Assembly: GCF_024448985.1 (NCBI RefSeq)
Contig: NZ_JAMOII010000016.1
Location: forward strand, 1-64,000
Source of the DNA: Stutzerimonas stutzeri
GTDB taxonomy: Bacteria; Pseudomonadota; Gammaproteobacteria; Pseudomonadales; Pseudomonadaceae
Length of the DNA: 64,000 bases
Reading direction: 5' to 3'
The notes under the pieces are model-generated. The model did not search any database and had not been told where the DNA came from. It saw nothing but the letters and a program-made list of their open reading frames with translations. Both the position numbers and the translations under genes were made by a program. Shown one piece after another: positions 4,242 to 55,277 of this stretch. The number at the start of each line of letters is the position of its first letter. The first letter of the stretch is position 1.

Positions 4242-5087
4242 TCATTGGATGCGGTAGTGGAAGGTGTTCTTCACTTCGGGCACGGACACTGCACGTCCGT
4301 CGATGACACGGGGCTGATAGCGAAAACTCTTGGCGGCGGTGAGCGACGGACGGATGAACAGCGGATGGCAGTCATCCAGTGCCTTCGGATTCTCGATCCG
4401 CCCCTGCGGGTTGACCGAATAACTCACGGTGCAGGTGCCCTCGATACCCTTGTCCAACGCACGTTGCGGGTAGGCTGGCGCGTCCTTGGCGATCGGCAGG
4501 TACTGCCGACTGGCAGCCGTGGCGGCTTCGGCTTGGCGTGCCCGTTCAGCGGCGGCAGCCGCTTCGGCTTGCGCTGCCTGCTCACGCTGTCGCGCCTCGC
4601 GGGCCAACTGTTCACGACGCTGGGCTTCGTGCTGCTGACGCTCGGTCTCGAGCCGCTCTTGCCGCTCGCGCTCCAATTGCTGCTTGCGTTGCCGTTCTTT
4701 TACGCGCTGCTCTTCGGCCTGTCGTTCCAGTTCGGCGCGCTTGTAGGCGAGCTCGGCCTGTTCGAGCCGATGCTGTTCGATTCGCGGATCGACTTGCGGT
4801 TCCTCGACCACGTCTCGAACCATGGTCTCGACCGGCTCCGGCAAAGGCGTCGGCTCAGGTTCGACAGGCGCCGCGACCACGGGTTGCGGAGCCGGCAAGC
4901 TGACCAGCTGTGTCTTGAGCACCTGTGTCGAGCTGGGTGCCGTCAGCTCCGGCGTCCAGCCGTGCAACAGCAGGCCGAACACCGCGGCGTGCAGCGCGAC
5001 GGTCACCACCGCTGCGCTGGCATGGCTGAGCCACTGCGGCCGGGGAGCTGGAAAGCTGTTGGGCAGCGTCATGATCAGGCTGCTCAT
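4242..5087 (-). CDS. TonB-family energy transducer, private to the phosphate island
   Basis: 281 residues. One N-terminal membrane segment (about 22-42) is followed by a Pro/Glu segment. A long Glu/Arg/Gln-rich region (about 95-195), likely helical, takes the place of the usual Pro-Lys linker and recalls TolA. The C-terminal TonB domain has the expected AYPQRAL start and ends in FHYRIQ. TonB spans the periplasm and passes proton-motive force from ExbB/ExbD to outer-membrane receptors. Its ATG overlaps the exbD stop (ATGA). Position between exbD and phoX suggests it serves the TonB receptor at 8374-10854. Confidence 0.88.
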   Translation of the reverse strand: MSSLIMTLPNSFPAPRPQWLSHASAAVVTVALHAAVFGLLLHGWTPELTAPSSTQVLKTQLVSLPAPQPVVAAPVEPEPTPLPEPVETMVRDVVEEPQVDPRIEQHRLEQAELAYKRAELERQAEEQRVKERQRKQQLERERQERLETERQQHEAQRREQLAREARQREQAAQAEAAAAAERARQAEAATAASRQYLPIAKDAPAYPQRALDKGIEGTCTVSYSVNPQGRIENPKALDDCHPLFIRPSLTAAKSFRYQPRVIDGRAVSVPEVKNTFHYRIQ

Positions 5088-5545
5088 GGCGTGGTTTGCC
5101 CAGGTGGCGCCTCGGTGATAAGGCCCAGGTTCACCACGCCGCCGCGCTGCAGTTCGGCAATCCCTGCCACCACGCGCCCATAGTCGGCGGCATCATCGGC
5201 GCGTACGTAGACCTGGGTGTCGCCGCGCTCAGCGATGATTGCCGCAACCTTTTCCCGCATCTCCTCGAGGTCGATCGCGCTGTCGGTCTGGTCCTCTGCA
5301 TTCAGCTCGTTGCCCAGGTTCCAGTAGAAGCCGCCGTCGGCCTTGACCGATAGCGTGAGAATCTGCCGCTCGTTCTCGGTGGGCATCGCCTCGGCGGCGA
5401 CTTTGGGCAGTTCGATTTTCACACCCTGCACCAGCATCGGCGCGGTAACCATGAAGATCACCAGCAGTACCAGCATCACATCGATGTAGGGCACCACATT
5501 CATTTCGGCTTTAGGACCGTGTTTACGCTGTGGTTTGACCAGCAT
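5084..5545 (-). CDS. exbD: ExbD/TolR-family biopolymer transport protein
   Basis: About 153 residues from the ATG at 5545, chosen because an AAAGGAG site sits eight bases upstream; the longer in-frame extension overlaps exbB and is unlikely. The N-terminal cytoplasmic stretch leads into the ExbD membrane helix with its proton-carrying aspartate (NVVPYIDVMLVLLVIFMVTAP). The periplasmic domain has the usual ILTLSVKADGGFYW segment. With ExbB it forms the inner-membrane proton channel that drives TonB. It lies 13 bases after exbB and overlaps tonB by four bases, so the three genes form a compact operon. Confidence 0.9.
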   Translation of the reverse strand: MLVKPQRKHGPKAEMNVVPYIDVMLVLLVIFMVTAPMLVQGVKIELPKVAAEAMPTENERQILTLSVKADGGFYWNLGNELNAEDQTDSAIDLEEMREKVAAIIAERGDTQVYVRADDAADYGRVVAGIAELQRGGVVNLGLITEAPPGQTTP

Positions 5546-27197: not shown

Positions 27198-28403
27198 TCA
27201 GGTGACAGCCTCGTGCCAGGAGCCAAAGGGGTCGGGAAGTCGCTCCCAAGTCTGCACGCCCGCGGCCATCTCCTGGTCGTCGAGCAGGCAGGCATCCAGT
27301 TCCGCGCTCAGTCGTTCGAAATCGATGTTCTGACCAATGAAAACCAGCTCCTGCCGGCAGTCGCCGGTCTGGACGTCCCAGTGCTTGAGAATTTCCTGCA
27401 TCCCCTCATCATCAGTGGGCCATTGTGTCTTCGGTACGAAGCGCCACCAACGCCCCGCCAGACCATGGCGCATCAGACCACCGGCCTGGGACCAGCTACC
27501 GGCCTCTTGGTGCTTGCTCGCAAGCCAGAAGAAGCCCTTGGAGCGCAGCAGCTTGCCATTGCTCCAGTCACGGATCAGAAATTCATGGAAACGCTGCGGA
27601 TGGAATGGCCGACGCGCACGATACGCGGTTGAGGCGATACCGTACTCCTCGCTTTCGGGCACGTGCTCGCCCCGTAGCTCCTTGAGCCAGCCTGGCGCTT
27701 GAGCGGCACGCTCGAAATCGAAGCGGCCGGTATCCAGGATATTGCCCAGCGGCACCTGGCCCATGCTCATCGGAATGATTTCAGCGCGCGTATTGAGGCC
27801 GCGCAGGATGGCAGTCAGCTCTTCACGTTCGGCGCTGGAAATCAGATCAATTTTGCTGATCAGGATGACGTCGGCGAACTCTACTTGTTCAATCAGCAGA
27901 TCGGTAATAGAGCGTTCATCCTCTTCGCCCAACGTCTCGCCGCGGCTGGCCAAGCTCTCCGCTTCGTGGAAATCAAGGAGAAAGTTGACCCCGTCGACCA
28001 CCGTGACCATGGTATCCAGGCGCGCGAGGTCGGACAGGCTCCGCCCCTGATCGTCGCGGAAGGTAAAGGTCTCGGCCACCGGCAAGGGTTCCGCGATGCC
28101 GGTGGATTCGATCAGCAGGTAGTCGAAACGGCCTTCGCGAGCCAGGCGACTAACCACCTCCAGCAGATCTTCGCGCAAGGTGCAGCAGATGCAGCCGTTG
28201 CTCATTTCCACCAGTTTCTCTTCGGCACGATTAAGGCTTACGTCGCGTTGTACTTCGCTGCCGTCGATGTTGATTTCGCTCATGTCGTTGACGATCACCG
28301 CGACACGACGGTTCTCGCGGTTCTTCAGCACATGGTTGAGGAGCGTGCTCTTGCCGGCGCCAAGAAAGCCGGACAGTACGGTGACGGGAAGTCGATCAGT
28401 CAT
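27198..28403 (-). CDS. zigA: COG0523 zinc GTPase metallochaperone
   Basis: 401 residues from the ATG at 28403, with GAGG upstream. The longer frame to 28724 overlaps dksA2 and is rejected. Walker A is GFLGAGKS (12-19), the metal-binding GCICC is at 70-74, and the guanine-specificity stretch is SKID near 178. The C-terminal CobW_C domain (about 265-385) is present. These GTPases deliver zinc to client enzymes during zinc starvation. The gene lies ten bases after dksA2 and both are downstream of a Zur-like palindrome at 28954-28968. This is the classic setting of the Zur-regulated COG0523 group. Confidence 0.9.
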
Positions 28404-28413
28404 AGGGGGAGCC

Positions 28414-28818
28414 TCAAGTCTCACGTAGATGTTTCTCTTTCTTTTCCTGCCGCTCCTTGGCCTCGATGCACAACGTCGCAGTAGGTCGCAGCAACAGGCG
28501 GCGCAGACCGATCGGGTCGCCGGTTTCCTCACACCAGCCGTATTCGCCGCGGGCCAGGCGCTCAAGTGCCCGGTCAATCTTGTCGAGCAGCTTCTTCTCA
28601 CGTTCGAGCAGGCGTAGCTGCCACTGTCGCTGCTCCTCCGTACTACCGATATCCGCAGGATCGCTGCTCGGCTCGTGATCGCGTAGTTCATCGAACTCGC
28701 TCGTGATTCGCTCCTGCAGCTCACGACGCTCGGTCAGCAGCAGTTCGCGAAAGAACGCCTGCTGCTGTTCGCTCATGTATGCGCTGGAGGGTTGCTGAAG
28801 CAGTTCCTGCTCAGTCAT
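28414..28818 (-). CDS. dksA2: Zinc-independent DksA paralogue
   Basis: 134 residues from the ATG at 28818. The coiled-coil tip motif DPAD is at 53-56, as in DksA, which acts through the RNA polymerase secondary channel with ppGpp. The zinc-finger positions read Cys96, Thr99, Cys117 and Ala120 in place of four cysteines, so the fold should not need zinc. This is the hallmark of DksA2, which replaces DksA under zinc limitation. It is the first gene of a dksA2-zigA unit behind the Zur-like site, about 136 bases away. Confidence 0.9.
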
Positions 28819-28953
28819 GGGTGGCACCAATGATCGATTGAGACGACACGACATCCATAAATCCGCTCTCTGACGTTCTTCTTGATAAAGGCGTTTGGCA
28901 TACCTGCTGGGCTACGGGTGGGATCCCATCAAGGGTGTCGCCCAGCTAGACAT

Positions 28954-28968
28954 TGTTATGATATAACA
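28954..28968. promoter_or_regulatory. Zur-like box between dksA2-zigA and rpmE2
   Basis: TGTTATGATATAACA is a perfect 6-3-6 palindrome matching the gammaproteobacterial Zur core GTTAT-n3-ATAAC. It lies 47 bases before the rpmE2 start and about 136 before dksA2, so it could repress both directions. Confidence 0.82.
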
Positions 28969-29015: not shown

Positions 29016-29273
29016 ATGAAACCAGGCATCCATCCCGACTATCGTCCCGTCCTGTTCCACGACACGGCGGCGGACGTCTACTTCCTGATTGGCTCAACGG
29101 TCGAATCCAGCCGTACGCACCAGCACACCGATGGCAATACCTACCCGTACGTGGCGCTCGACGTATCCAGCGCATCGCATCCGGTCTACACCGGCCAGCA
29201 ACGCAAAACGACGTCCGAAGGCCGTATCGCGGGCTTCAACAAGCGCTTCGCAGGATTTACCACGAAGAAGTGA
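29016..29273 (+). CDS. rpmE2: Ribosomal protein L31 type B, zinc-free paralogue
   Basis: 85 residues from the ATG at 29016, with AAGGAG six bases upstream. It matches the long L31B form ([16 protein letters not shown], SGxT-like turn, basic C-terminus) and contains no cysteine, so it lacks the zinc-binding CxxC of type A. L31B replaces the zinc-binding L31 on ribosomes when zinc is short and so frees zinc. It starts 47 bases from the Zur-like box and is the first gene of the plus-strand zinc unit. Confidence 0.93.
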
Positions 29274-29371: not shown

Positions 29372-31333
29372 ATGTCCCGCAAGCCCCACCTTCTTACTGT
29401 CCGCACACCCGCCCGACTCGTTGCTGCCCTCGCCCTGCTACCTCTGGCCGCACTGGGCGCTGACCAGACCCTGAACTTCGAACCCACGGTCATCACCGCC
29501 ACCTCCACGGTGCGCCAGCTGAGCGATGCACCCGCAAGCGTTACGGTCATCACCCGCAAGGAACTGAGCATGCGGCCCGTTCAGGATCTCGAAGATGCCC
29601 TGCGCGGCACGCCGGGGCTCCAGTTCACCGGCATTGGCATGACACGCCGTGGCGTCAGCATTCGTGGGATGGGAAGCGAGCACACGCTCGTACTGTTGAA
29701 CGGGCAGCGCATCAATACGGCCGCAGGCGCCGTGGCGCACGCCGATTTCGATCTGGGCTGGGTGCCGGTGGAGGCTATCGAGCGCATCGAGGTGATACGC
29801 GGCCCGATGTCCTCGCTCTACGGCTCCGAGGCGCTCGGGGGTGTGGTCAATGTGATCACACGGCGCGCTACGGACGCATGGCAGGGCGCGGCGCAGATCA
29901 ACGGCGGCGTACGCGAGGACGGGCGCGGCGGCCAGACACACCAACTTGGGGCCTATGCCGGCGGCCCGCTTGTGCCTGGACTGCTCGGCCTATCCATGAG
30001 CGGCGAGACGCGGCGCCGCCAGGAAACGCCCTTTCACGACGATACCTCGCCGTCTGAGATCGAAGGCCGTGACGCACACAGCGGCGACATCACGCTGAGC
30101 TGGACGCCAGACACCGCGCAACGCATCGACCTCAGCTATGCAAGCGGCCTGGAGGATCGCTGGCGCAACACTCGCAGTGCTGGACGCGCACCGGTGGAGT
30201 ACGAGTCCAGCGATCGCATCGAACGTGAGCGATTCTCCCTCGTCCATAGCGGCGACTGGGCGTGGGGCAGCAGCTCGCTGCGCGCCTACCGCAACACACT
30301 GGAGCGTACCAACCGCTATACCAACGGCGTGGTCCCCTCCTCGCCACGTCAGGAACTCACCGACGACATCGTCGATGGCAGCCTGACCCTGCCATTTGCC
30401 GACATGCACCTGATCACGCTCGGCGGCGAGTGGCGCAAGGAGCAGCTGGAGGACGGCGGCTTTACGACAGGCGATGCCCGAATCATTCACCGTGCGCTGT
30501 TTCTGCAGGATGAAATCCAGTTCAACCCGGCCTGGTCGCTGGTCCTGGGCAACCGCTTCGATCAGCACGAGGAATACGGCTGGCACAACAGCCCGCGTGC
30601 CTACCTGGTTCACCATGTTAACGATGCCCTGACGATCAAGGGCGGCGGCGGCCGCGGGTTCAAGGCGCCCTCACTCAAGCAGCTATCGCCGGGCTATTCG
30701 GCCATCGGCGGCGGCGGGATGTTCAAGATTAACGGCAATCCGGATCTCGAACCCGAGATCAACACCATGTACGAAATCAGCGTGGACTATCAGGCAGACG
30801 GCTGGTCCGCGAACGCGGGTGTCTTTCAGAACAACGTGCGTGGTCTGATCCAAACGGTCTGCGTATCGAGCTGTGGCGTTCGCGGCCAAGAAGTTCGCAA
30901 CTACGACAACGTCGACGAAGCGCGCATCCGCGGGCTTGAGCTAGGCGGCGGTGTAGATTTGCCCGCCAACCTGCGCTGGGACCTGAACTACACCTACCTC
31001 GACGCCATCGACCGCAGCGCCGACCGGCGCCTGGGTGATCGCGCGCGTCATCTGGCCAACACCCAACTCCAATGGACGCCGAACGCCACGTTCACCGGGC
31101 AGCTGCGTGGCGAATACGTCGGCAGCCAGCTGACCTATTCCAGCAACACCGCCTATGCGGTGCCGGCCTACAGCCTGTGGCATCTGGAGCTGACGCAGCG
31201 GATTACCGACGCCCTGAGCATTCGCGGCGGCATCGAAAACCTGACCGACGAAGACTTCAGCGATGCGTCTGACAACTTCACCTTCGCCGAACCGGGCCGC
31301 ACCTATCACGTCGGCTTGAGCCTGAGTTTCTGA
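29372..31333 (+). CDS. TonB-dependent receptor of the zinc island
   Basis: 653 residues with a signal peptide ending near residue 29 (LGA). The plug (about 40-160) contains PVQDLEDALRGTPGLQFTGIGMTRRGVSIRGMGSEHTLVLLNGQR in family style and YGSEALGGVVNVITRR. The barrel ends in LSLSF. It resembles the CirA/BtuB-size class. The CobN-like gene starts two bases after its stop. In P. aeruginosa a Zur-controlled operon of the same composition (TonB receptor, CobN-like, small membrane proteins; PA1922-PA1925) is known. Zinc or a zinc complex is the likely ligand, by inference. Confidence 0.88.
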   Translation: MSRKPHLLTVRTPARLVAALALLPLAALGADQTLNFEPTVITATSTVRQLSDAPASVTVITRKELSMRPVQDLEDALRGTPGLQFTGIGMTRRGVSIRGMGSEHTLVLLNGQRINTAAGAVAHADFDLGWVPVEAIERIEVIRGPMSSLYGSEALGGVVNVITRRATDAWQGAAQINGGVREDGRGGQTHQLGAYAGGPLVPGLLGLSMSGETRRRQETPFHDDTSPSEIEGRDAHSGDITLSWTPDTAQRIDLSYASGLEDRWRNTRSAGRAPVEYESSDRIERERFSLVHSGDWAWGSSSLRAYRNTLERTNRYTNGVVPSSPRQELTDDIVDGSLTLPFADMHLITLGGEWRKEQLEDGGFTTGDARIIHRALFLQDEIQFNPAWSLVLGNRFDQHEEYGWHNSPRAYLVHHVNDALTIKGGGGRGFKAPSLKQLSPGYSAIGGGGMFKINGNPDLEPEINTMYEISVDYQADGWSANAGVFQNNVRGLIQTVCVSSCGVRGQEVRNYDNVDEARIRGLELGGGVDLPANLRWDLNYTYLDAIDRSADRRLGDRARHLANTQLQWTPNATFTGQLRGEYVGSQLTYSSNTAYAVPAYSLWHLELTQRITDALSIRGGIENLTDEDFSDASDNFTFAEPGRTYHVGLSLSF

Positions 31334-31334
31334 C

Positions 31335-34300
31335 ATGTCCAGTTGGATCAGAATCGGCGCGGCGCTAATCGCGCTGGCCGGCTGGGGAGCGACTGCGTTC
31401 GCCAATCCGGTACGGCAAGACATTCATGTACAGGTGCTGACGACCGACTTCGTCCTGCAGGGCAAGTTCGACCGGCTGGCGGGCTGGGCGGACCGATACG
31501 GTGTCACGCTCGATACCCTGCGCGTGTCCTCGGTAGCCACGCCGCAACACGGCACTGACGCGGACCTGCTGATACTGGACACGCCGCGCCCTGCGGACCT
31601 TGCGGCGGTCCAGCAGCAGTTCGACGCGCTAATCGCGAGGGGCACGCCTTGGATACGCGTCGGCGGGGGTTCGCCTGCCTTTGGCAACCTGCCTATGCCG
31701 GTCGCCAGGCGGTTGATCGGTTATTACGCTAACGGTGGCGAACAGAACCTCAGGGATCTGTTCGCCTACCTGCGAGCCTGGCACGACGACCTCCCCACCG
31801 ACTCGATTCCTGCCCCTACGGAGCTGGGCAAGGTCGGCTTCTATCATCCCGACGCACCCGCGCCCTTTACAGAACTCGACGAATACCTCGCCTGGGGCGC
31901 CGATCGCTGGACGAAAGATGCGCCGCGTGTCGCCTTCGCCATTCACCGCGGTGCCATCGTCGATAGCCACTTGCAGTTGCTCGACGCGTTGATGAAAAGC
32001 AGCGAATCGCGCGGCCAGGCTCCAATCGCGTTCTGGATGGATGACAGGGACCCACAGGCGCTGAGCAAGGTGCTGATACCCGCACGCAGCGATGTGCTGG
32101 TCAACCTTCAGCACATGCAGAACGGTCCGGCACGTCAGGCAGAGTTTCTAGCACTTGGCATCCCGGTGCTGTCCACCCTGACCTGGCGGGAAGGTGATTT
32201 TGCGCATTGGCAAGCGTCCGATAGCGGTATCACGGCGCGAACCGCCGCGGCCATGCTGACCATCCCCGAAAGCTGGGGCATGACCGATCCGCTGGTGATC
32301 GCCGCCGTCGAAAATGGCGAGCCGACCCCAATCCCCGAGCAAGTCGAGGCGCTGCTCGGCAAGGTCGACAGCCTGACCCGGCTGCGTCGGCTTGCCCCTG
32401 CGGAGAAACGTCTGACGTTGATGTTCTGGAACCATCCCGGCGGCGAAAAGAACGTGGCCGCGTCCAACCTCAACGTGCCACGCAGCCTGGCGCGCCTCTC
32501 TATTGCGCTGCAGACGGCCGGCTATGACGTGCCCGTCACGGGTGAGGCGCAGCTGATCGAAACGGCGCAGCGCCTGCTTGGCGGCTATTACCGGTCAGAC
32601 ACACTGGACGATCTGCTAGCCGACGGCCTTGCCGTGGCGTTGCCGCTGTCGGACTACCAGCGTTGGCTCGCAGATCTGCCGGCATTCAGACGCAAGGCAT
32701 TACTCGAGCGATGGGGCGATCCGACTGACCATTGGGCGCTACGTGAAGTAGACGGCAAGCCTCATTTCATCATTCCCGCCGCGCGCCTCGGCAAGCTATT
32801 ACTGCTGCCGCAACCGCCGCGTGCTGGCCGTCCCGGCGAGGCCTATCACGACAGCAAGGTCGCGCCGGATCATCTCTATCTGGCCGCCTATCAAGCGCTG
32901 CGAGAGGTCTTTAAAGCCGATGCGCTGATTCACTTCGGCACGCACGGCACGCAGGAATGGCTACCCGGTAAGGATCGCGGCCTGGCCGCGAGCGACTACC
33001 CCTTCCTTGCGCTGGGCGATATGCCGGTGTTCTACCCCTACATTCAGGACAACATTGGCGAGGCCATACAGGCGCGCCGTCGCGGTCGCGCGGTCATCGT
33101 CAGTCACCAGACACCGCCCTTTGCGCCCGCCGGGCTGTATGACGAGCTGCGCGACGTGCATGCGCTGATCCACGAATACCAGCAGCTTGACGAGGGCGCG
33201 GTGCGTGAAAACACGGCCGAACGTATTCGTCGGTTGGCCTTGCAAAGCAAGCTGCTGGAAGACCTTGGCTGGGACGAAGCGCGCATGCGCGCCAATACCG
33301 GAGACTTCCTGCTGGCGTTGCATGATTACCTGCACGAGATGGCCCAGGCGAACTTGCCGCTCGGCCTGCACACCTTCGGCGAGCCTGCATCCGCCGAACA
33401 CCGTCTGGCCACTGTGCTGCAACAGCTGGGCGAGCCCTACCTGCGTGCGCTGGAGCTGGCCGACGACGAGCCGATGGCCGAGGATTTCGCCGGACTGCAG
33501 GCCAGCCTTCCCTATCGCACCCTGCAGCGTTATTTGCGCGAGGATGAAAGCCTTGACTCGATTACCGATACCGAACTGCGCGAGCAGATCGAACGCGCAC
33601 GCGTGTTGGACGCCCGGCTGACCGACACAGGTGAAATGGAAGCGCTGCTGACCGGCCTTGCCGGCGGCTTCGTCGCACCCGGCCCCGGCGGCGATCCGGT
33701 GCGCAATCCGGACGTGCCAAGCGGTCGCAACCTCTACGCCTTCGAGGCCGACAAGTTGCCGACCCGAGCGGCCTATGAGGCAGGCGGCAAGGCACTGGAG
33801 CAACTGCTCGCGAGCTACCGTGATGAGCACGAAGGCGCATTGCCGACGAAGCTCGCCTTCAGCCTGTGGTCCTCCGAAGCCATGCGCCACCTGGGCATCC
33901 TCGAAAGCCAAGTCTTGCACGCACTGGGTGTACGTCCGGTTTGGGATGGGGGAGGACGGGTTCGTGCCCTGGAGATCATCCCGGCAGCGGAACTTGGCAG
34001 AGCACGCATTGATGTCGTCGTCCAGGTCACCAGCGTCTACCGCGATCAGTTCGATGGCTTCATGCGGCAATTGGCCGATGTGATGGAGCGGCTCGCCGTG
34101 CTGGATGAACCGGGCAACACGCTGGCCAGCAACAGCCGGCTGCTGGCCCAGCGGCTACAAGATCAAGGGGTCGATGCCGATCGCGCCGAGCGCTTGTCGC
34201 ACTTGCGGCTGTTCGGTAACGAGCCCGGCGATTACGGCACCGGTGTTTCTCAGTTGACGATGGATTCCACACGCTGGGAAAACGATTCGCAGCTCGCCGA

Positions 34301-35210
34301 GCAGTTCCTCTCGCGGTTGCAATATGGCTACGGCACCGGCAGTTGGGGAGAGAAAATCGACGGCCAGAACCTGTTCGCCGAACAACTCAGGGGGGGCCAG
34401 GCCGCGGTCATGGCCCGCTCCAGCGAGCTCAACGGCGTGCTGTCGACCGACCATCCGTTCGAGTTTCTAGGGGGACTTTCCCTGGCGGTCCGCCATCTCA
34501 ACGGTGCCAGCCCGTCGCTCTATATATCGGACCTGCGCAAGACCGAGCCCCGCACGACCGGCGCCGCGAGCTACCTCGCCAGTGAACTGCGCAGCCGCTA
34601 CTTGAACCCGCAATGGATCAGCGCAATGCAGCAGGAAGGCTACGCCGGCACGCTCGAGGTGTTGAACGTCGCCAACAACCTCTGGGGCTGGCAAGCCGCC
34701 GACCGCAGCATGGTTCGCGCCGACCAATGGCAGGCCCTGCATGACACCTTCGTAATGGACCAGCGCGAGCTTGGCCTCGATCAATGGTTCGAGGCACACA
34801 ACCCCACGGCTCAGGCCCAGCTGATCGAGCGTATGGCCGAGGCGATCCGCAAGGGTTACTGGGATGCCTCCGATCAAACCCGACGCGAACTGGCCGAACG
34901 TTGGCAGGCGCTCACCACTGGACATGGCGCCGATGCCGGCGAGCCGATTTCCCGAGACTTCATCGAACAGATGGCCGCCGGCTACGGCCTCGCGCCAACG
35001 GCCGCAACGCCCACCTCTTCAAGCAACGTGGGCGCGGACGAGGCGGTGCGCGGCCAGGTGATGCAGGAAGTGGCTGAGCAACCGAGCGAAGCGCCGAACC
35101 CATGGCGGCTTCTGCTCGGCATCGCCGCGTTGCTGTCGTGCCTCGTACTTGGCGCCCTACTCCAAGCGCTCGCCAACCATCGCGTCGAGCCGATTTTTAA
35201 TTCTCAGTGA
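31335..35210 (+). CDS. Periplasmic membrane-anchored CobN-like protein
   Basis: 1291 residues of the CobN/magnesium-chelatase H family. The hallmark HFGTHGTQEWLPGK lies near 534-547, with DMPVFYPYIQDNIGEA after it. Unlike cytoplasmic CobN it has an N-terminal signal peptide (about 1-24, ending AFA) and one C-terminal membrane helix (about 1256-1275, NPWRLLLGIAALL...). The bulk should therefore face the periplasm. The AAA+ partners CobS/CobT or ChlI/ChlD are absent. It is followed by ExbB-like and DUF2149 genes, and preceded by two bases by a TonB receptor. Family membership is clear. A role in zinc or metal-chelate handling under zinc starvation is an inference from the island. Confidence 0.88.
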   Translation: MSSWIRIGAALIALAGWGATAFANPVRQDIHVQVLTTDFVLQGKFDRLAGWADRYGVTLDTLRVSSVATPQHGTDADLLILDTPRPADLAAVQQQFDALIARGTPWIRVGGGSPAFGNLPMPVARRLIGYYANGGEQNLRDLFAYLRAWHDDLPTDSIPAPTELGKVGFYHPDAPAPFTELDEYLAWGADRWTKDAPRVAFAIHRGAIVDSHLQLLDALMKSSESRGQAPIAFWMDDRDPQALSKVLIPARSDVLVNLQHMQNGPARQAEFLALGIPVLSTLTWREGDFAHWQASDSGITARTAAAMLTIPESWGMTDPLVIAAVENGEPTPIPEQVEALLGKVDSLTRLRRLAPAEKRLTLMFWNHPGGEKNVAASNLNVPRSLARLSIALQTAGYDVPVTGEAQLIETAQRLLGGYYRSDTLDDLLADGLAVALPLSDYQRWLADLPAFRRKALLERWGDPTDHWALREVDGKPHFIIPAARLGKLLLLPQPPRAGRPGEAYHDSKVAPDHLYLAAYQALREVFKADALIHFGTHGTQEWLPGKDRGLAASDYPFLALGDMPVFYPYIQDNIGEAIQARRRGRAVIVSHQTPPFAPAGLYDELRDVHALIHEYQQLDEGAVRENTAERIRRLALQSKLLEDLGWDEARMRANTGDFLLALHDYLHEMAQANLPLGLHTFGEPASAEHRLATVLQQLGEPYLRALELADDEPMAEDFAGLQASLPYRTLQRYLREDESLDSITDTELREQIERARVLDARLTDTGEMEALLTGLAGGFVAPGPGGDPVRNPDVPSGRNLYAFEADKLPTRAAYEAGGKALEQLLASYRDEHEGALPTKLAFSLWSSEAMRHLGILESQVLHALGVRPVWDGGGRVRALEIIPAAELGRARIDVVVQVTSVYRDQFDGFMRQLADVMERLAVLDEPGNTLASNSRLLAQRLQDQGVDADRAERLSHLRLFGNEPGDYGTGVSQLTMDSTRWENDSQLAEQFLSRLQYGYGTGSWGEKIDGQNLFAEQLRGGQAAVMARSSELNGVLSTDHPFEFLGGLSLAVRHLNGASPSLYISDLRKTEPRTTGAASYLASELRSRYLNPQWISAMQQEGYAGTLEVLNVANNLWGWQAADRSMVRADQWQALHDTFVMDQRELGLDQWFEAHNPTAQAQLIERMAEAIRKGYWDASDQTRRELAERWQALTTGHGADAGEPISRDFIEQMAAGYGLAPTAATPTSSSNVGADEAVRGQVMQEVAEQPSEAPNPWRLLLGIAALLSCLVLGALLQALANHRVEPIFNSQ

Positions 35211-35220
35211 ACCGAAACCC

Positions 35221-35700
35221 ATGAATGCACTTGAAACCAGTCTCTACGAACTGACACGCATCTTTCTCGTACCCGTTCTGCTATTGATCCTGGCCGCGCT
35301 GGCTTATGCCTTTTTGGCATTGGGCAGCTTCGCCATGGAGGCCTGGCAACGCCGTAACGGCCGCTATCGTTCCGTCCTCGCCGCGCACCAAGCGGCAAAC
35401 GGTGGCACCAGCGATGACCTCGAGCTCTGGATCATGCAACGCCTGGAATGGCTGCGCGTAACCTCGCGCAGCGCGCCGATGCTGGGGCTGGTCGCGACGA
35501 TGATTCCCATGGGCCCAGCCCTGCTGGCACTGACCCAGAGCGATGCAAAAGGCATCGGCGAGAATCTGGTGGTCGCCTTCTCCTCGGTGATCCTCGCGCT
35601 CATCGCAGCGAGCGTCACCTTCTTCATTCTCACCGTTCGGCGCCGCTGGCTGTTGCAGGAGCTGCGTGCCATCGAGCGCGCCGGGGTACAGTACCGATGA
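35221..35700 (+). CDS. MotA/TolQ/ExbB-like proton channel protein
   Basis: 159 residues from the ATG at 35221, ten bases after the CobN-like stop; a longer frame overlaps that gene. Three likely membrane helices (about 12-36, 85-105, 118-142) and the stretch SAPMLGLVATMIPMGPALLAL recall the ExbB/TolQ pore helices (TxPxLGLLGTVxGM). It is shorter than true ExbB. The next gene overlaps by four bases and encodes an ExbD-like DUF2149 protein. Together they probably form a small pmf-driven motor for the CobN-like protein or the receptor; that is inference. Confidence 0.82.
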   Translation: MNALETSLYELTRIFLVPVLLLILAALAYAFLALGSFAMEAWQRRNGRYRSVLAAHQAANGGTSDDLELWIMQRLEWLRVTSRSAPMLGLVATMIPMGPALLALTQSDAKGIGENLVVAFSSVILALIAASVTFFILTVRRRWLLQELRAIERAGVQYR

Positions 35701-36020
35701 GATTTCTCGACCATGACGACGACGATGACCCGCTGCTGTCAGTCGTCAACCTGATCGATTTGTTCCTGGTGGTGATCGGCATTCTGCTCATCGTCATCGT
35801 GCAGAACCCGCTCAATCCATTCAGCCAGGAGAAGGTCGTGGTTATCGAAAATCCGGGCGAAGCGAACATGCGCATGCTGATCAAGGACGGTCAGGAGTTG
35901 AAGCAATATGAGTCGAATGGGGAAATCGGCGAGGGCCAGGGCGCCAAGGCTGGAATCACCTATCGCCTGAACGACGGAAGGATGATTTATGTGCCCGAGG
36001 AGAATGCATTGGTTAAGTGA
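35697..36020 (+). CDS. DUF2149 protein, ExbD-like
   Basis: 107 residues starting in the stop codon of the previous gene (ATGA overlap). A short acidic N-terminus (DHDDDDDP) leads into one membrane helix (NLIDLFLVVIGILLIVIVQNP) with an aspartate at its start, like the proton-carrying Asp of ExbD/TolR. A small periplasmic domain follows. DUF2149 proteins are found beside CobN-like and ExbB-like genes in bacteria and archaea. It closes the rpmE2-receptor-CobN-ExbB-like run. Confidence 0.85.
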   Translation: MRFLDHDDDDDPLLSVVNLIDLFLVVIGILLIVIVQNPLNPFSQEKVVVIENPGEANMRMLIKDGQELKQYESNGEIGEGQGAKAGITYRLNDGRMIYVPEENALVK

Positions 36021-36160
36021 TTTCTAACCGTGATTTAGGCAAAAGAAGACAGGCCAATCCTCGTGAGCCGCATCGGTATCGTGCCGATAGCCTACCGGGT
36101 AGTCGAACCTTATGCGGGGCCAGGTCGAAAATTTGGCGAACAGCCATTCCAAACGGTCTT

Positions 36161-36173
36161 GTTATATTATAAC
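36161..36173. promoter_or_regulatory. Second Zur-like box, upstream of the DUF1624 gene
   Basis: GTTATATTATAAC is a perfect palindrome with the same GTTAT-n3-ATAAC core as the site at 28954-28968. It lies 35 bases before the DUF1624 start, in an AT-rich patch, and gives this gene its own zinc-responsive promoter. Confidence 0.78.
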
Positions 36174-36176
36174 TTT

Positions 36177-36203
36177 CGCGTCCCGCTTTATATCCAGGAC
36201 GCG
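36177..36203 (+). promoter_or_regulatory. Leader hairpin covering the DUF1624 ribosome-binding site
   Basis: Perfect 7-base arms CGCGTCC (36177-36183) and GGACGCG (36197-36203) around 13 bases. The AGGA Shine-Dalgarno lies in the second arm, five bases from the ATG, so folding would hide it. Whether the transcript starts upstream of the stem is unknown. Confidence 0.45.
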
Positions 36204-36208
36204 CTTAC

Positions 36209-37408
36209 ATGACTAACGCCGCCGCCACGATGCCCGCAGCCGGCACGCTTTCATCCCTTCATGCCAAGACGCAGGTACGCACGCGAATGCTTGCGATCGA
36301 CGCATTGCGTGGGCTGGTCATGCTGTTCATGCTCGTCGACCACGTGCGGGAGACCTTTTTCCTGCACGTTCAGGTAGGCGACCCCATGGATCCGGTCAAC
36401 ACGCCACCTGAGCTGTTCTTCACGCGTATCAGCAGCATGGTCTGCGCACCGGTCTTTGTATTCCTGACCGGCCTTTCCGCATGGTTGTACGGGCAATCCC
36501 ACAGCCGCAGCGAAGTGTCGACGTTCCTGCTCAAGCGGGGCGTATTCCTCGTGTTCCTCGAACTGACCCTGGTGAACTTCGCCTGGAACGCGACCTTCGT
36601 ACCGCCGACCCTGTGGTTGCAGGTCATCTGGGCAATCGGCTTGAGCATGATCGTACTGTCCGCACTTATCCACATGCCGCGTGCCGCGCTGGCGGTGCTG
36701 GGCTTGGTGATCGTAGCCGGCCACAACCTGCTCGATGGCATCGTGCTCACAGCGGATTCGCCATTCTTCGAGATCTGGTCGATCCTGCACCAGCGTTCCT
36801 TTATCGAAATCACCGAGCACACGCGTGCACGGACCACTTACCCCATCCTGCCCTGGATCGGTCTCATCGCGCTTGGCTACTGCGCCGGCCCCTGGTTTGC
36901 CCGCGATGCCGATCCGGCGCAGCGTGCCCGCCGCCTGTTGATGTGGGGAGTCGGTTTGCTCGTGGGTTTCGTCCTGATCCGCTACCTGAACGTTTATGGC
37001 GACAAGCCCTGGAGCGCCATGGAAAACGGCGTGCGCACCTTCATGAGCTTCATGTCGCTTACCAAATACCCGCCTTCCCTTATGTTCCTGATGCCAACCA
37101 TCGCCGTCGGCTTTCTGCTGCTCGCCTGGTTTCAGCAACTCGAAGGGCGTCCCGTGCTGAAGGTGCTTTCGCTGTATGGCGGCGCGCCGATGTTCTTCTA
37201 TGTCCTTCACCTGCTGGTACTCAAGGCGCTTTACCTGATCGCGGTGCAGATCTGGGGTCTGAATCAAGGCAACTACTACGGCTTCGATAGCCTCGCCGGT
37301 ATCTGGCTATGGGCTGTGATGCTGTCGGCAGCACTTTATTTTCCGACCCGCTGGTTCGCGCAGCTCAAGCAGCGCCGTCGCGATATCGCCTGGCTGAAAT
37401 ACTTCTAA
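36209..37408 (+). CDS. DUF1624 multi-pass membrane protein (HGSNAT-like acyltransferase fold)
   Basis: 399 residues with about ten membrane helices. The N-terminal RMLAIDALRGLVMLFMLVDHVRE block (about 27-49) is the signature of DUF1624 and heparan-alpha-glucosaminide N-acetyltransferase-like proteins, with a candidate catalytic His in VDH. Enzymes of this fold move acyl groups across membranes, but no substrate is known for this group. A Zur-like palindrome lies 35 bases upstream, so it should be induced by zinc shortage. A frameshifted OprD-type porin starts ten bases after its stop. Confidence 0.85.
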   Translation: MTNAAATMPAAGTLSSLHAKTQVRTRMLAIDALRGLVMLFMLVDHVRETFFLHVQVGDPMDPVNTPPELFFTRISSMVCAPVFVFLTGLSAWLYGQSHSRSEVSTFLLKRGVFLVFLELTLVNFAWNATFVPPTLWLQVIWAIGLSMIVLSALIHMPRAALAVLGLVIVAGHNLLDGIVLTADSPFFEIWSILHQRSFIEITEHTRARTTYPILPWIGLIALGYCAGPWFARDADPAQRARRLLMWGVGLLVGFVLIRYLNVYGDKPWSAMENGVRTFMSFMSLTKYPPSLMFLMPTIAVGFLLLAWFQQLEGRPVLKVLSLYGGAPMFFYVLHLLVLKALYLIAVQIWGLNQGNYYGFDSLAGIWLWAVMLSAALYFPTRWFAQLKQRRRDIAWLKYF

Positions 37409-53821: not shown

Positions 53822-54828
53822 AACGCTAGATCCTCAGGCGTAAATGTCATCGTGAACGAGCGATACGGCTGAAACTCCTGGGCAGTGAGCCCCTGCATTT
53901 CGGTCAGCCGACCAATATTCTTTACTGCTGCGACCGCCGAATTATCGAACGGCGCATCGCCACTCGAACGCGAAACGGTTGCAGCGGTAATGGTGCCATC
54001 CGGCAGCATATTGACCCGGAGCGTTACCGACATGTTGTTCCGGGCCGATGGCGGTCGGGTCCAGCCCTCTGCCGCACGCAGACGAATCAGGTCATCGAAG
54101 TTACCGGCTACCTGATCGCCTTGAGTGTCAGCCATGGCCTGCTGCCGCTCCGTGTCTTCAGACAATAGCTCGGCAAGTGCTTGCGCCTTTTTGTCCTCGG
54201 CAGCCTTGCGGGCAGCCTCGGCTGCTGCTTTCTTCTTGGCTTCTTCGGCGGCCTTTTTCTTCGCAGCCTCAGCTGCCGCCTTTTTCTTTGCGTCCTCTGC
54301 CGCTTTCTTTTTCGCGGCCTCGGCAATAGCTTTCTTCTTGGCTTCTTCCGCAGCCTTTTTCTTGGCCGCCTCGTCAGCCGCTTTCTTCTTGGCGATATCC
54401 GCCTGTTTTTTCTGTTCGGCTAGTTTCTTGGCTTCTTCGGCTTTTTTCGCCTCCGCAGACTTCTTTGCCGCGTCAGCCTTCGCTGCTTCGGCCTTTCGAG
54501 CCTCGTCCGCCTTCTTTTGTTCCGCGGCCTTGGCGGCGGCCTGTTTCTGCTGCTCGGCCTTGCGCTGTTCCAGCTGCTCGGCTTCATACTGCTTGGCAGC
54601 AGTTTTCTGAGCCTCGCCCGCGATCTTCTGATTCGTCTGAGTCGTAGCTTGGCTCTGAGATTTGAGCTGGTACAAGGTCGCCTGAACGATGGGCTTGGAT
54701 GGTGGCAGCTCCGGTGTCATGGCGAAGCTGACGAAGAGCATTCCGAAAATAACAATATGCAGCCCGACCGCCAGAATGGTGGGCCAGTAGTAGCTCTCCG
54801 AGCGTGAACGTTCCGGCTGTTGCATCAA
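53818..54828 (-). CDS. tolA: Tol-Pal system protein TolA
   Basis: 336 residues. One N-terminal membrane helix (about 15-36) is followed by a long Ala/Lys/Glu-rich helix (about 65-220) with repeated [10 protein letters not shown] units. The C-terminal TolA domain (about 240-336) ends in [15 protein letters not shown]. TolA spans the periplasm and couples TolQR to Pal-TolB. The repetitive helix gives the long opposite-strand open frames seen here, which are not genes. Confidence 0.94.
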
Positions 54829-55277
54829 GGCGCCTCGGTAATCAAGCCGACGTTACCGACACCCGCTTCCTGCAGTCCGCCCATGGCGGACATCACCGAA
54901 CCGTAGTCCACCGCCTTGTCGCCACGCACGAACACCTGAACCTGCTTACCCTGGCTACGGTTCTGGTTCATGATCGCGGTGACCGCTTTGGTCATCTCAT
55001 CCAGTGTCAGGGCCTGATCCTGAACGGTTTCGGTGTCCACTTCGCTCCCGATGTTCCAGAAGTAAGTCTTGTCCGCCTTGATCGAAATGGTCAGTACTTG
55101 AGCATCGTTATCCTGGGGCAGGGCTTCGCTGCTGACCTTGGGCAGATCAACCTTTACGCCCTGATTGAGCATTGGCGCGGTCACCATGAAGATGACGAGC
55201 AGCACCAGCATCACGTCGATGTAGGGCACCACGTTCATCTCGGCGACAGGTTTGCGTCTGTTGCGAATTCTGGCCAT
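54825..55277 (-). CDS. tolR: Tol-Pal system protein TolR
   Basis: 150 residues. A single N-terminal membrane helix carries the proton-binding aspartate (AEMNVVPYIDVMLVLLVIFMVTAP), followed by a periplasmic domain with ILTISIKADKTYFWNIG. TolR and TolQ form the motor for TolA. Its start is 12 bases after the tolQ stop and its end overlaps tolA. Compare the ExbD at 5084-5545, which shares this helix almost exactly. Confidence 0.95.
   Translation of the reverse strand: MARIRNRRKPVAEMNVVPYIDVMLVLLVIFMVTAPMLNQGVKVDLPKVSSEALPQDNDAQVLTISIKADKTYFWNIGSEVDTETVQDQALTLDEMTKAVTAIMNQNRSQGKQVQVFVRGDKAVDYGSVMSAMGGLQEAGVGNVGLITEAP

Follow-up and report, generated by a model that had tools for sequence, protein, structure and literature searches.

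A run of genes in a 64,000-nucleotide stretch of Stutzerimonas stutzeri DNA (contig NZ_JAMOII010000016.1, positions 1 to 64,000; hereafter the window) is tentatively read here as encoding a Zur-controlled, proton-driven periplasmic de-chelatase for a porphyrin-like metal complex, which would probably serve to release zinc. We give this reading a probability of roughly 0.42. The genes of a TonB-dependent receptor, a CobN-like protein, an ExbB-like protein and a DUF2149 protein form one tight co-directional run behind a perfect Zur-type box:

28954 to 28967, no strand assigned: Zur-type operator TGTTATGATATAAC, 0 mismatches to the motif
29372 to 31333, plus strand: TonB-dependent receptor, CirA-like (PF00593, PF07715)
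31335 to 35210, plus strand: CobN-like class I (de-)chelatase, 1291 amino acids (PF02514; sequence and fold comparison)
35221 to 35700, plus strand: ExbB/TolQ/MotA-like proton-channel subunit, 159 amino acids (PF01618)
35697 to 36020, plus strand: DUF2149 protein, 107 amino acids, proposed ExbD-like partner (PF09919)

A single base separates the receptor stop from the CobN start, 10 nt lie between the CobN-like and ExbB-like genes, and the ExbB stop overlaps the DUF2149 start as ATGA. An earlier note on this DNA had described a CobN-family protein with a signal peptide and a C-terminal helix, followed directly by coupled ExbB-like and DUF2149 genes. Both observations stand, but the unit is larger than supposed there and includes the box at 28954 together with the receptor gene and a gene for a type B ribosomal protein L31 (L31B).

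The CobN-like protein belongs to the class I chelatase superfamily: PF02514 covers residues 129-1182 with an E-value of 4.4e-299 (995 bits), and it is the only PF02514 protein in the whole genome. By sequence, its best solved relative is HmuS (443 bits vs 379 for CobN). The predicted model reached a predicted local distance difference test score (pLDDT) of 86.5 and shows a six-domain fold with HmuS (9d26) as top Foldseek match; template modelling (TM) scores, normalised by the model, were 0.80 to 9d26 and 0.77 to 7c6o. HmuS is a periplasmic heme de-chelatase whose chemistry has been described, with metal removal proposed to proceed via paired histidines (PMC12583661; published work is cited throughout from the portions of text accessible to us). 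The earlier statement that no mechanism is known for such operons does not hold for this nearest relative, although no proposal that a proton motor drives a chelatase was found in the open-access literature searched.

The hmuYRSTUV operon of Bacteroidota resembles the window in many respects, namely the PF02514 six-domain fold of a periplasmic, inner-membrane-anchored protein, an upstream receptor gene, an ExbB-like and a DUF2149 gene within the same operon, the catalytic His/His/Glu set and a neck histidine. In contrast, the window cassette lacks the methionine-rich insert, Met79, the Gly-Arg pair, HmuT and HmuY; it carries a Zur-type box where the HmuS operon is under iron control, and it falls into a separate clade. 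Alignment with HmuS places the candidate active-site residues as follows:

32112 to 32114, plus strand: neck His260, aligned with the HmuS heme ligand His254 (alignment gappy there)
32943 to 32945, plus strand: His537 in HFGTHG, aligned with the HmuS catalytic His538
34452 to 34463, plus strand: His1040...Glu1043 (DHPFEFLGG), aligned with HmuS His1209/Glu1212

The HmuS motif HFG(T/A)HG is present as HFGTHG at residue 533, and the motif LSLDHxxEFMGG is found as LSTDHPFEFLGG, with two of its ten fixed letters changed and both His and Glu kept. At the positions of HmuS 1209/1212, CobN rows carry Asp/Gln (4/4; in a larger alignment Asp in 17/19 and Gln in 17/19). In ChlH, which works on a porphyrin, five of eight rows carry His at the first position, and the second is Asp. 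Metal removal appears more likely than insertion, since HmuS, a de-chelatase, scores best among the solved relatives by sequence and shares its His/Glu pair with the window protein.

Two further features concern the topology of the protein:

31335 to 31403, plus strand: signal peptide, residues 1-23, cleavage AFA/N (by inspection; hydropathy score KD15 1.67)
35106 to 35171, plus strand: C-terminal membrane anchor (hydropathy score KD17 2.67)

The signal peptide was predicted by inspection from an n-region, a hydrophobic core and the AFA/N site, its KD15 lying under the threshold of 1.9 that was used for counting N-termini (C-terminal KD17 threshold: 1.75). These thresholds were applied to 113 CobN/ChlH-family proteins besides that of the window, after 14 short or cut CobN pieces had been dropped. 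Proteins were called motor-linked if an ExbB gene lay within 3 kb on the same strand; the motor-linked rows were drawn mostly via ExbB/DUF2149 and the motorless ones via CobN, so that the two sets are sampled differently. All 71 motor-linked proteins also have a DUF2149 neighbour; 63 of them pass at the N-terminus, 69 at the C-terminus and 61 at both ends, with C-terminal scores of 1.55-3.46. The 42 motorless proteins yielded 3 and 0 passes, respectively, with C-terminal scores of 0.11-1.31. Every motor-linked protein (71/71) thereby scores above every motorless one at the C-terminus. This comparison supports an extracytoplasmic, membrane-anchored chelatase. A locus called L154 (5369-10515) encodes a CobN-like protein that has a signal-peptide-like start but lacks a C-terminal anchor, and the 16 kb of this locus contain neither ExbB nor DUF2149; its sister in the tree, L153, has signal peptide, motor and anchor. 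The CobN-like gene of L154 is followed by a periplasmic binding protein gene.

CobN and ChlH spend ATP through AAA+ subunits (PMC7689651). In the whole genome, CobT (PF06213) gave no match and CobS (TIGR01650) reached no more than 24 bits, with the cut-off at 559, in agreement with the earlier note, which had seen no AAA+ partners in the stretch. The BchI/ChlI model TIGR02030 reached 25 bits against a cut-off of 467, a weak test as the model passes in 0/14 control genomes. The CobN of CobNST systems differs in that motorless rows lack export signal and anchor, in its CobS/CobT partners and in its Asp/Gln pair. An ordinary cobaltochelatase was rejected on account of the C-terminal anchor, the lack of a CobT match, the CobS score below its cut-off and the replacement of Asp/Gln by His/Glu, despite the 2026 bits with which NF004644 labels 31335-35210 as cobaltochelatase subunit CobN. 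This NCBIfam name is probably misleading.

The ExbB-like protein matches PF01618 with 27.3 bits (E 3.3e-6, cut-off 22.9) and the DUF2149 protein matches PF09919 with 99.4 bits. The latter was modelled as one helix followed by a small beta domain (pLDDT 71, predicted TM score (pTM) 0.35), and its helix carries the ExbD-like aspartate that had been noticed before:

35757 to 35759, plus strand: Asp21 of the DUF2149 helix (NLID), invariant

Asp21 is found in all 138 segments with a letter at this position (141 aligned), and a conserved helix aspartate has an established role in partners of the ExbD/TolR/MotB type. Like ExbB-ExbD, TolQ-TolR and MotA-MotB, the system combines an ExbB-like channel with a one-helix partner bearing a conserved Asp; it differs in having DUF2149 with its modelled small beta domain as the partner, and in occurring in genomes without TonB. 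At E 0.001 the ExbD/TolR profile PF02472 did not match the DUF2149 protein, which hit only PF09919. We propose that DUF2149 acts as an ExbD-like motor partner.

The genomic company of the pair was surveyed with a pattern scan based on an ExbB alignment in a collection of genome contigs. Of at least 593 loci the 80 best were taken; adding 17 Pseudomonadota DUF2149 loci gave a set of 77 bacterial and 20 archaeal ones, in which those having 6 kb available on both sides are counted as loci with room. Among the bacterial loci with room, DUF2149 was present in 47/47 and CobN within 6 kb in 47/47, and a receptor gene stood anywhere in the locus in at least 39/47. Receptors were searched with the window receptor as sole query (E 1e-6) and TonB genes near cassettes with one seed, so that both counts are lower bounds. 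Among 398 Pseudomonadota genomes, 17 carry DUF2149, with 18 genes in all; 17 of these loci, and the window as the eighteenth, have ExbB and CobN nearby in every case, by which a chance adjacency was rejected. The bacterial linkage of motor and chelatase is strict in this sample, and the anchored chelatase is tied to the ExbB-like/DUF2149 pair instead of CobS/CobT. This much of the earlier idea that a proton-driven machine replaces the ATP-driven partners is supported by comparison, while the insertion of metal that it also allowed is less likely than removal.

ExbB together with CobN was also found in archaea, a Firmicute and an actinomycete. In eight such genomes (six archaea, the Firmicute and the actinomycete; six of the eight metagenome-assembled by title, with completeness not given) a TonB_C search yielded 0/8 matches, compared to 5/5 in diderm controls; one of them, L073, shows no DUF2149 in the stretch covered. 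Because the window's own genome has four TonB_C and four ExbD matches outside this run, the receptor can do without the ExbB-like/DUF2149 pair. These TonB-less genomes, the CobN linkage that is stricter than that of the receptor and the other ExbD/TonB genes in the genome are hard to reconcile with a pair that serves an outer-membrane receptor only, and a motor for the receptor was rejected as the sole explanation.

Comparison also supports a zinc-starvation context of the run. The box at 28954-28967 separates the L31B-receptor-CobN-ExbB-DUF2149 side from a divergent side with dksA-like and zigA genes:

27201 to 28481, minus strand: ZigA-type zinc chaperone GTPase, divergent (NF038288, 686 bits, cut-off 600)
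28417 to 28821, minus strand: DksA-like protein with two cysteines only, divergent (profile match and sequence)
29016 to 29273, plus strand: L31B, type B ribosomal protein L31, cysteine-free (NF002462, 125 bits, cut-off 86)

Type B L31 is a zinc-sparing paralogue. The Zur-type motif occurs at two sites of the window, which, read on both strands, give 4 matches vs 0.59 expected, with 4 reached in 2/100 shuffles; the second perfect box (36160-36173) lies upstream of an HGSNAT-like membrane protein gene. Allowing up to one mismatch, four further sites are found elsewhere in the genome, one of them directly 5' of a gene for a His-rich protein that adjoins an ABC ATPase gene. This locus looks like a zinc uptake locus, presumably of the ZrgA-like kind. 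As the reversed pattern gave more genome matches (9 and 6 vs 4 and 4 for the true pattern), the motif alone is not selective and its placement is what counts. The box is assigned to Zur by its likeness to published sites, one of similar form being quoted in PMC8456098, and by its neighbour genes, and Zur regulation in S. stutzeri itself is presumed.

Residue type and box go together across relatives. In a tree from which 13 motorless rows had been thinned beforehand, the window clade (12 rows, support 100) is set apart from a riboswitch-rich cassette clade and from HmuS. Within the window clade, 50 cassettes with CobN were compared (42 of 52 family matches plus 9 loci of a phylum sample, minus L244, which has no CobN); further new family matches beyond the 52 lie outside this comparison. 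The residues at HmuS 1209/1212 are His/Glu in 32, Asp/Gln in 16 and unreadable in 2 (L025, L269). With up to one mismatch allowed, a Zur-type box lies near the first gene of 24/32 His/Glu cassettes, the window included, but of 0/16 Asp/Gln cassettes, and permuted motifs gave means of 0.19 of 32 and 0.11 of 16 with a maximum of 1 each. L252 and L261, both with CobN below 1000 amino acids, were kept among the 32, and the stretch of L261 ends before the start of the run, so that a box would not be visible. The neck histidine (HmuS His254) is present in 29/30 His/Glu rows vs 0/16 Asp/Gln rows, CobN pieces below 1000 amino acids (L252, L261, L269) being left out. The His/Glu rows group in a single clade (support 97, from a quick tree that drew long-branch warnings), and HmuS carries the same His/Glu residues on another branch. 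Some genomes have a near (over ~60%) and a far DUF2149 match (L240/L270, L241/L272, L238/L271), which points to both kinds of cassette in one genome.

According to the preferred reading, Zur would leave the box at 28954 upon zinc starvation and the operon would be made. The CirA-like receptor, powered by one of several ordinary TonB systems of the cell, would import a metal-loaded tetrapyrrole (the favoured candidate being a zinc porphyrin) into the periplasm, where it would be bound by the CobN-like protein held by its C-terminal helix. His537 and His1040 may then hold the metal and give protons to the pyrrole nitrogens, so that the metal would be freed for periplasmic zinc importers. Demetallation of a porphyrin needs both ring distortion and protons. 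The ExbB-like/DUF2149 pair would be a proton motor that opens, distorts or resets the anchored chelatase, taking the part played by AAA+ subunits with CobN and ChlH. In a wider and more doubtful form, the pair would be a TonB-independent proton motor that mechanically drives extracytoplasmic class I chelatases, and, in certain archaea, further exported proteins with a C-terminal anchor, and the window lineage would have turned from Asp/Gln to His/Glu on coming under Zur and so become a zinc-porphyrin stripper.

The preferred reading has to be weighed against the possibility, unlikely in our view but already in print, that the pair is a private ExbB/ExbD system powering the TonB-dependent receptor, with the CobN-like protein working alone in the periplasm. 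ExbB/ExbD likeness and a receptor as the assumed client were stated for HmuU/HmuV of B. theta (PMC10100974, PMC12583661), and the same was suggested for P. aeruginosa PA1922/PA1924 (PMC4542158, PMC8456098). The frequent receptor genes in bacterial loci agree with this, as do TonB genes near at least four cassettes and near that of Geobacter lovleyi (PMC3403914), whereas the absence of TonB_C from the eight genomes, the stricter CobN linkage, the other ExbD and TonB genes of the genome and a window cassette without a TonB-sized extra gene speak against it. Improbable, too, is a corrinoid substrate whose cobalt is removed or which is remodelled, zinc control then serving to gain cobalt as a zinc substitute or to spare zinc-dependent methionine synthesis. 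A link to corrinoids is real in the other large cassette clade, given its riboswitches and CbiZ: a cobalamin riboswitch occurs in 10 of 16 loci scanned, nine of them upstream on the cassette strand, and a CbiZ/binding-protein gene adjoins or is fused to CobN in 2/2 loci tested. In addition, cobO/cbiB-like genes (judged by eye) adjoin L030/L031, two of 12 scanned His/Glu loci adjoin a receptor gene led by a cobalamin riboswitch, and in P. aeruginosa cobalt rises in a znuA mutant (PMC4542158). Yet no cobalamin riboswitch was found in the window or leading the 12 His/Glu cassettes scanned, the CobN-type Asp/Gln is replaced by His/Glu, and zigA, L31B and the dksA-like gene as neighbours point to zinc. 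A heme de-chelatase like HmuS that is merely under Zur control would share the His/Glu pair and the neck histidine with HmuS; this is quite improbable considering that Met79, Gly-Arg and the methionine-rich insert are missing, that the cassette has no additional gene for HmuY or HmuT and that the box is of zinc and not of iron type. The least likely alternative, and a rather remote one, is a non-tetrapyrrole zinc chelate or the direction of insertion: the receptor is closest to CirA, a catecholate receptor by model name, but HmuS, CobN and ChlH, the relatives that have been characterised, work on tetrapyrroles.

Several observations weigh against a proton-driven zinc de-chelatase. VIA-align ranks CobN over HmuS. 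Met79 and the Gly-Arg after the neck histidine of HmuS are absent in the window protein, in a gappy part of the alignment, and the methionine-rich domain IV insertion is reduced to 46 residues vs 212 in HmuS. The receptor resembles CirA (388 bits vs 109 for BtuB and 94 for PhuR; 425 bits with the CirA model, under its cut-off of 745) and no known porphyrin receptor. Purified HmuS converts heme in the absence of the pair, which the chemistry therefore does not strictly require, and the NADH that HmuS needs indicates a redox part which zinc would not require (PMC12583661). The profile comparison of DUF2149 with ExbD is weak (29 columns, helix region only, probability 17.8); for the DUF2149 model (pTM 0.35) Foldseek gave no match at E 0.001 or better. 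A box at one mismatch is missing from eight of the 32 His/Glu cassettes, two of the 32 being fragments, and the association of His/Glu with the box amounts to one joint event because it falls into a single clade. The corrin link of the Asp/Gln relatives would rest on their residues, a cobalamin riboswitch occurring in 1/13 Asp/Gln loci scanned in the window clade (L030). Finally, the TonB genes near cassettes and the riboswitch-led receptor genes mentioned above belong here, and among six archaeal loci with room CobN was found in three and a receptor in none, so that the pair stands without CobN nearby in 3/6.

If the proposal holds, it would have consequences for known systems. Purified HmuS performs only 1-2 turnovers (PMC12583661), a limit that would be expected with a partner missing, although instability, cofactors and product inhibition are listed by the authors as well; a motor would be a testable reason for it. 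An effect of HmuT, HmuU or HmuV on HmuS activity was not excluded in PMC13227078. The P. aeruginosa operon PA1922-PA1925, with genes for a TonB-dependent receptor, a CobN-like, an ExbD-annotated and a hypothetical protein, is zinc-controlled with a Zur site (PMC4542158, PMC8531726, PMC11761036, PMC8456098). In the accessible text its role is called unknown or that of a zinc/cobalt importer, with no chelatase motor proposed. The proposal would give these genes, so far without an explanation, a role in the response of P. aeruginosa to zinc starvation. In the text available, a study of tonB1 and zinc (PMC12838275) makes no mention of PA1922-1925, and a Met-Seq heme screen lists PA1923 in a table with no insertion count. 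Papers on coproporphyrin as a zincophore and on the uptake of zinc porphyrins were also looked for, with no useful result. CobN-like proteins apart from CobN and ChlH were assigned to a BtuS family connected with B12 and heme (Rodionov 2003, cited in PMC6460266), an account that mentions ExbB 0 times in the portion accessible. CobN-exbB neighbourhoods in single genomes are already in print (PMC3403914). New, as far as searched, are the loyalty of the pair to the chelatase in TonB-less organisms, the rule that motor and C-terminal anchor go together, and the switch to His/Glu that accompanies Zur-type boxes. Chelation would join the jobs of ExbB/ExbD-type proton motors and CobN-type enzymes would gain a power source beside AAA+ subunits. 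The results also suggest that the annotation name CobN hides a class of exported enzymes.

Six archaeal pairs without CobN nearby (L078 2195-8971, L110 1-4770, L095 5474-7402, L102 6301-8607, L082 4458-7553, L090 7397-8908) are each preceded by a gene for a large exported protein of another kind (CARDB/PQQ_2, beta-helix, FmdE, or without a Pfam match) whose C-terminus is hydrophobic; in a seventh such locus, L086, the C-terminus is not hydrophobic (1.35). The ExbB-DUF2149 motor may be a general module; hydrophobic C-terminal anchors are common among archaeal surface proteins. A gene for a DUF2162 membrane protein lies near ExbB in L037, L041, L048, L055, L061, L063, L072, L075, L093, L094 and L111, and its product is perhaps the counterpart of HmuT. 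A B. fragilis protein at the HmuT position (L108) has no Pfam match, and the window cassette has no gene in the place of DUF2162 or HmuT. Periplasmic-binding-protein and CbiZ domains are fused to or encoded beside exported CobN in L054 (1224-7358) and L037 (10011-12050), an arrangement suggesting extracytoplasmic corrinoid remodelling. Elsewhere in the window, ExbD-family genes are located at 4248-5515 and 53905-55256, each with a TonB_C match nearby, of which the second is weak (30 bits). The HGSNAT-like gene behind the second box (36160-37408, box included) has a relative that is also close to the sister cassettes L236 and L237.

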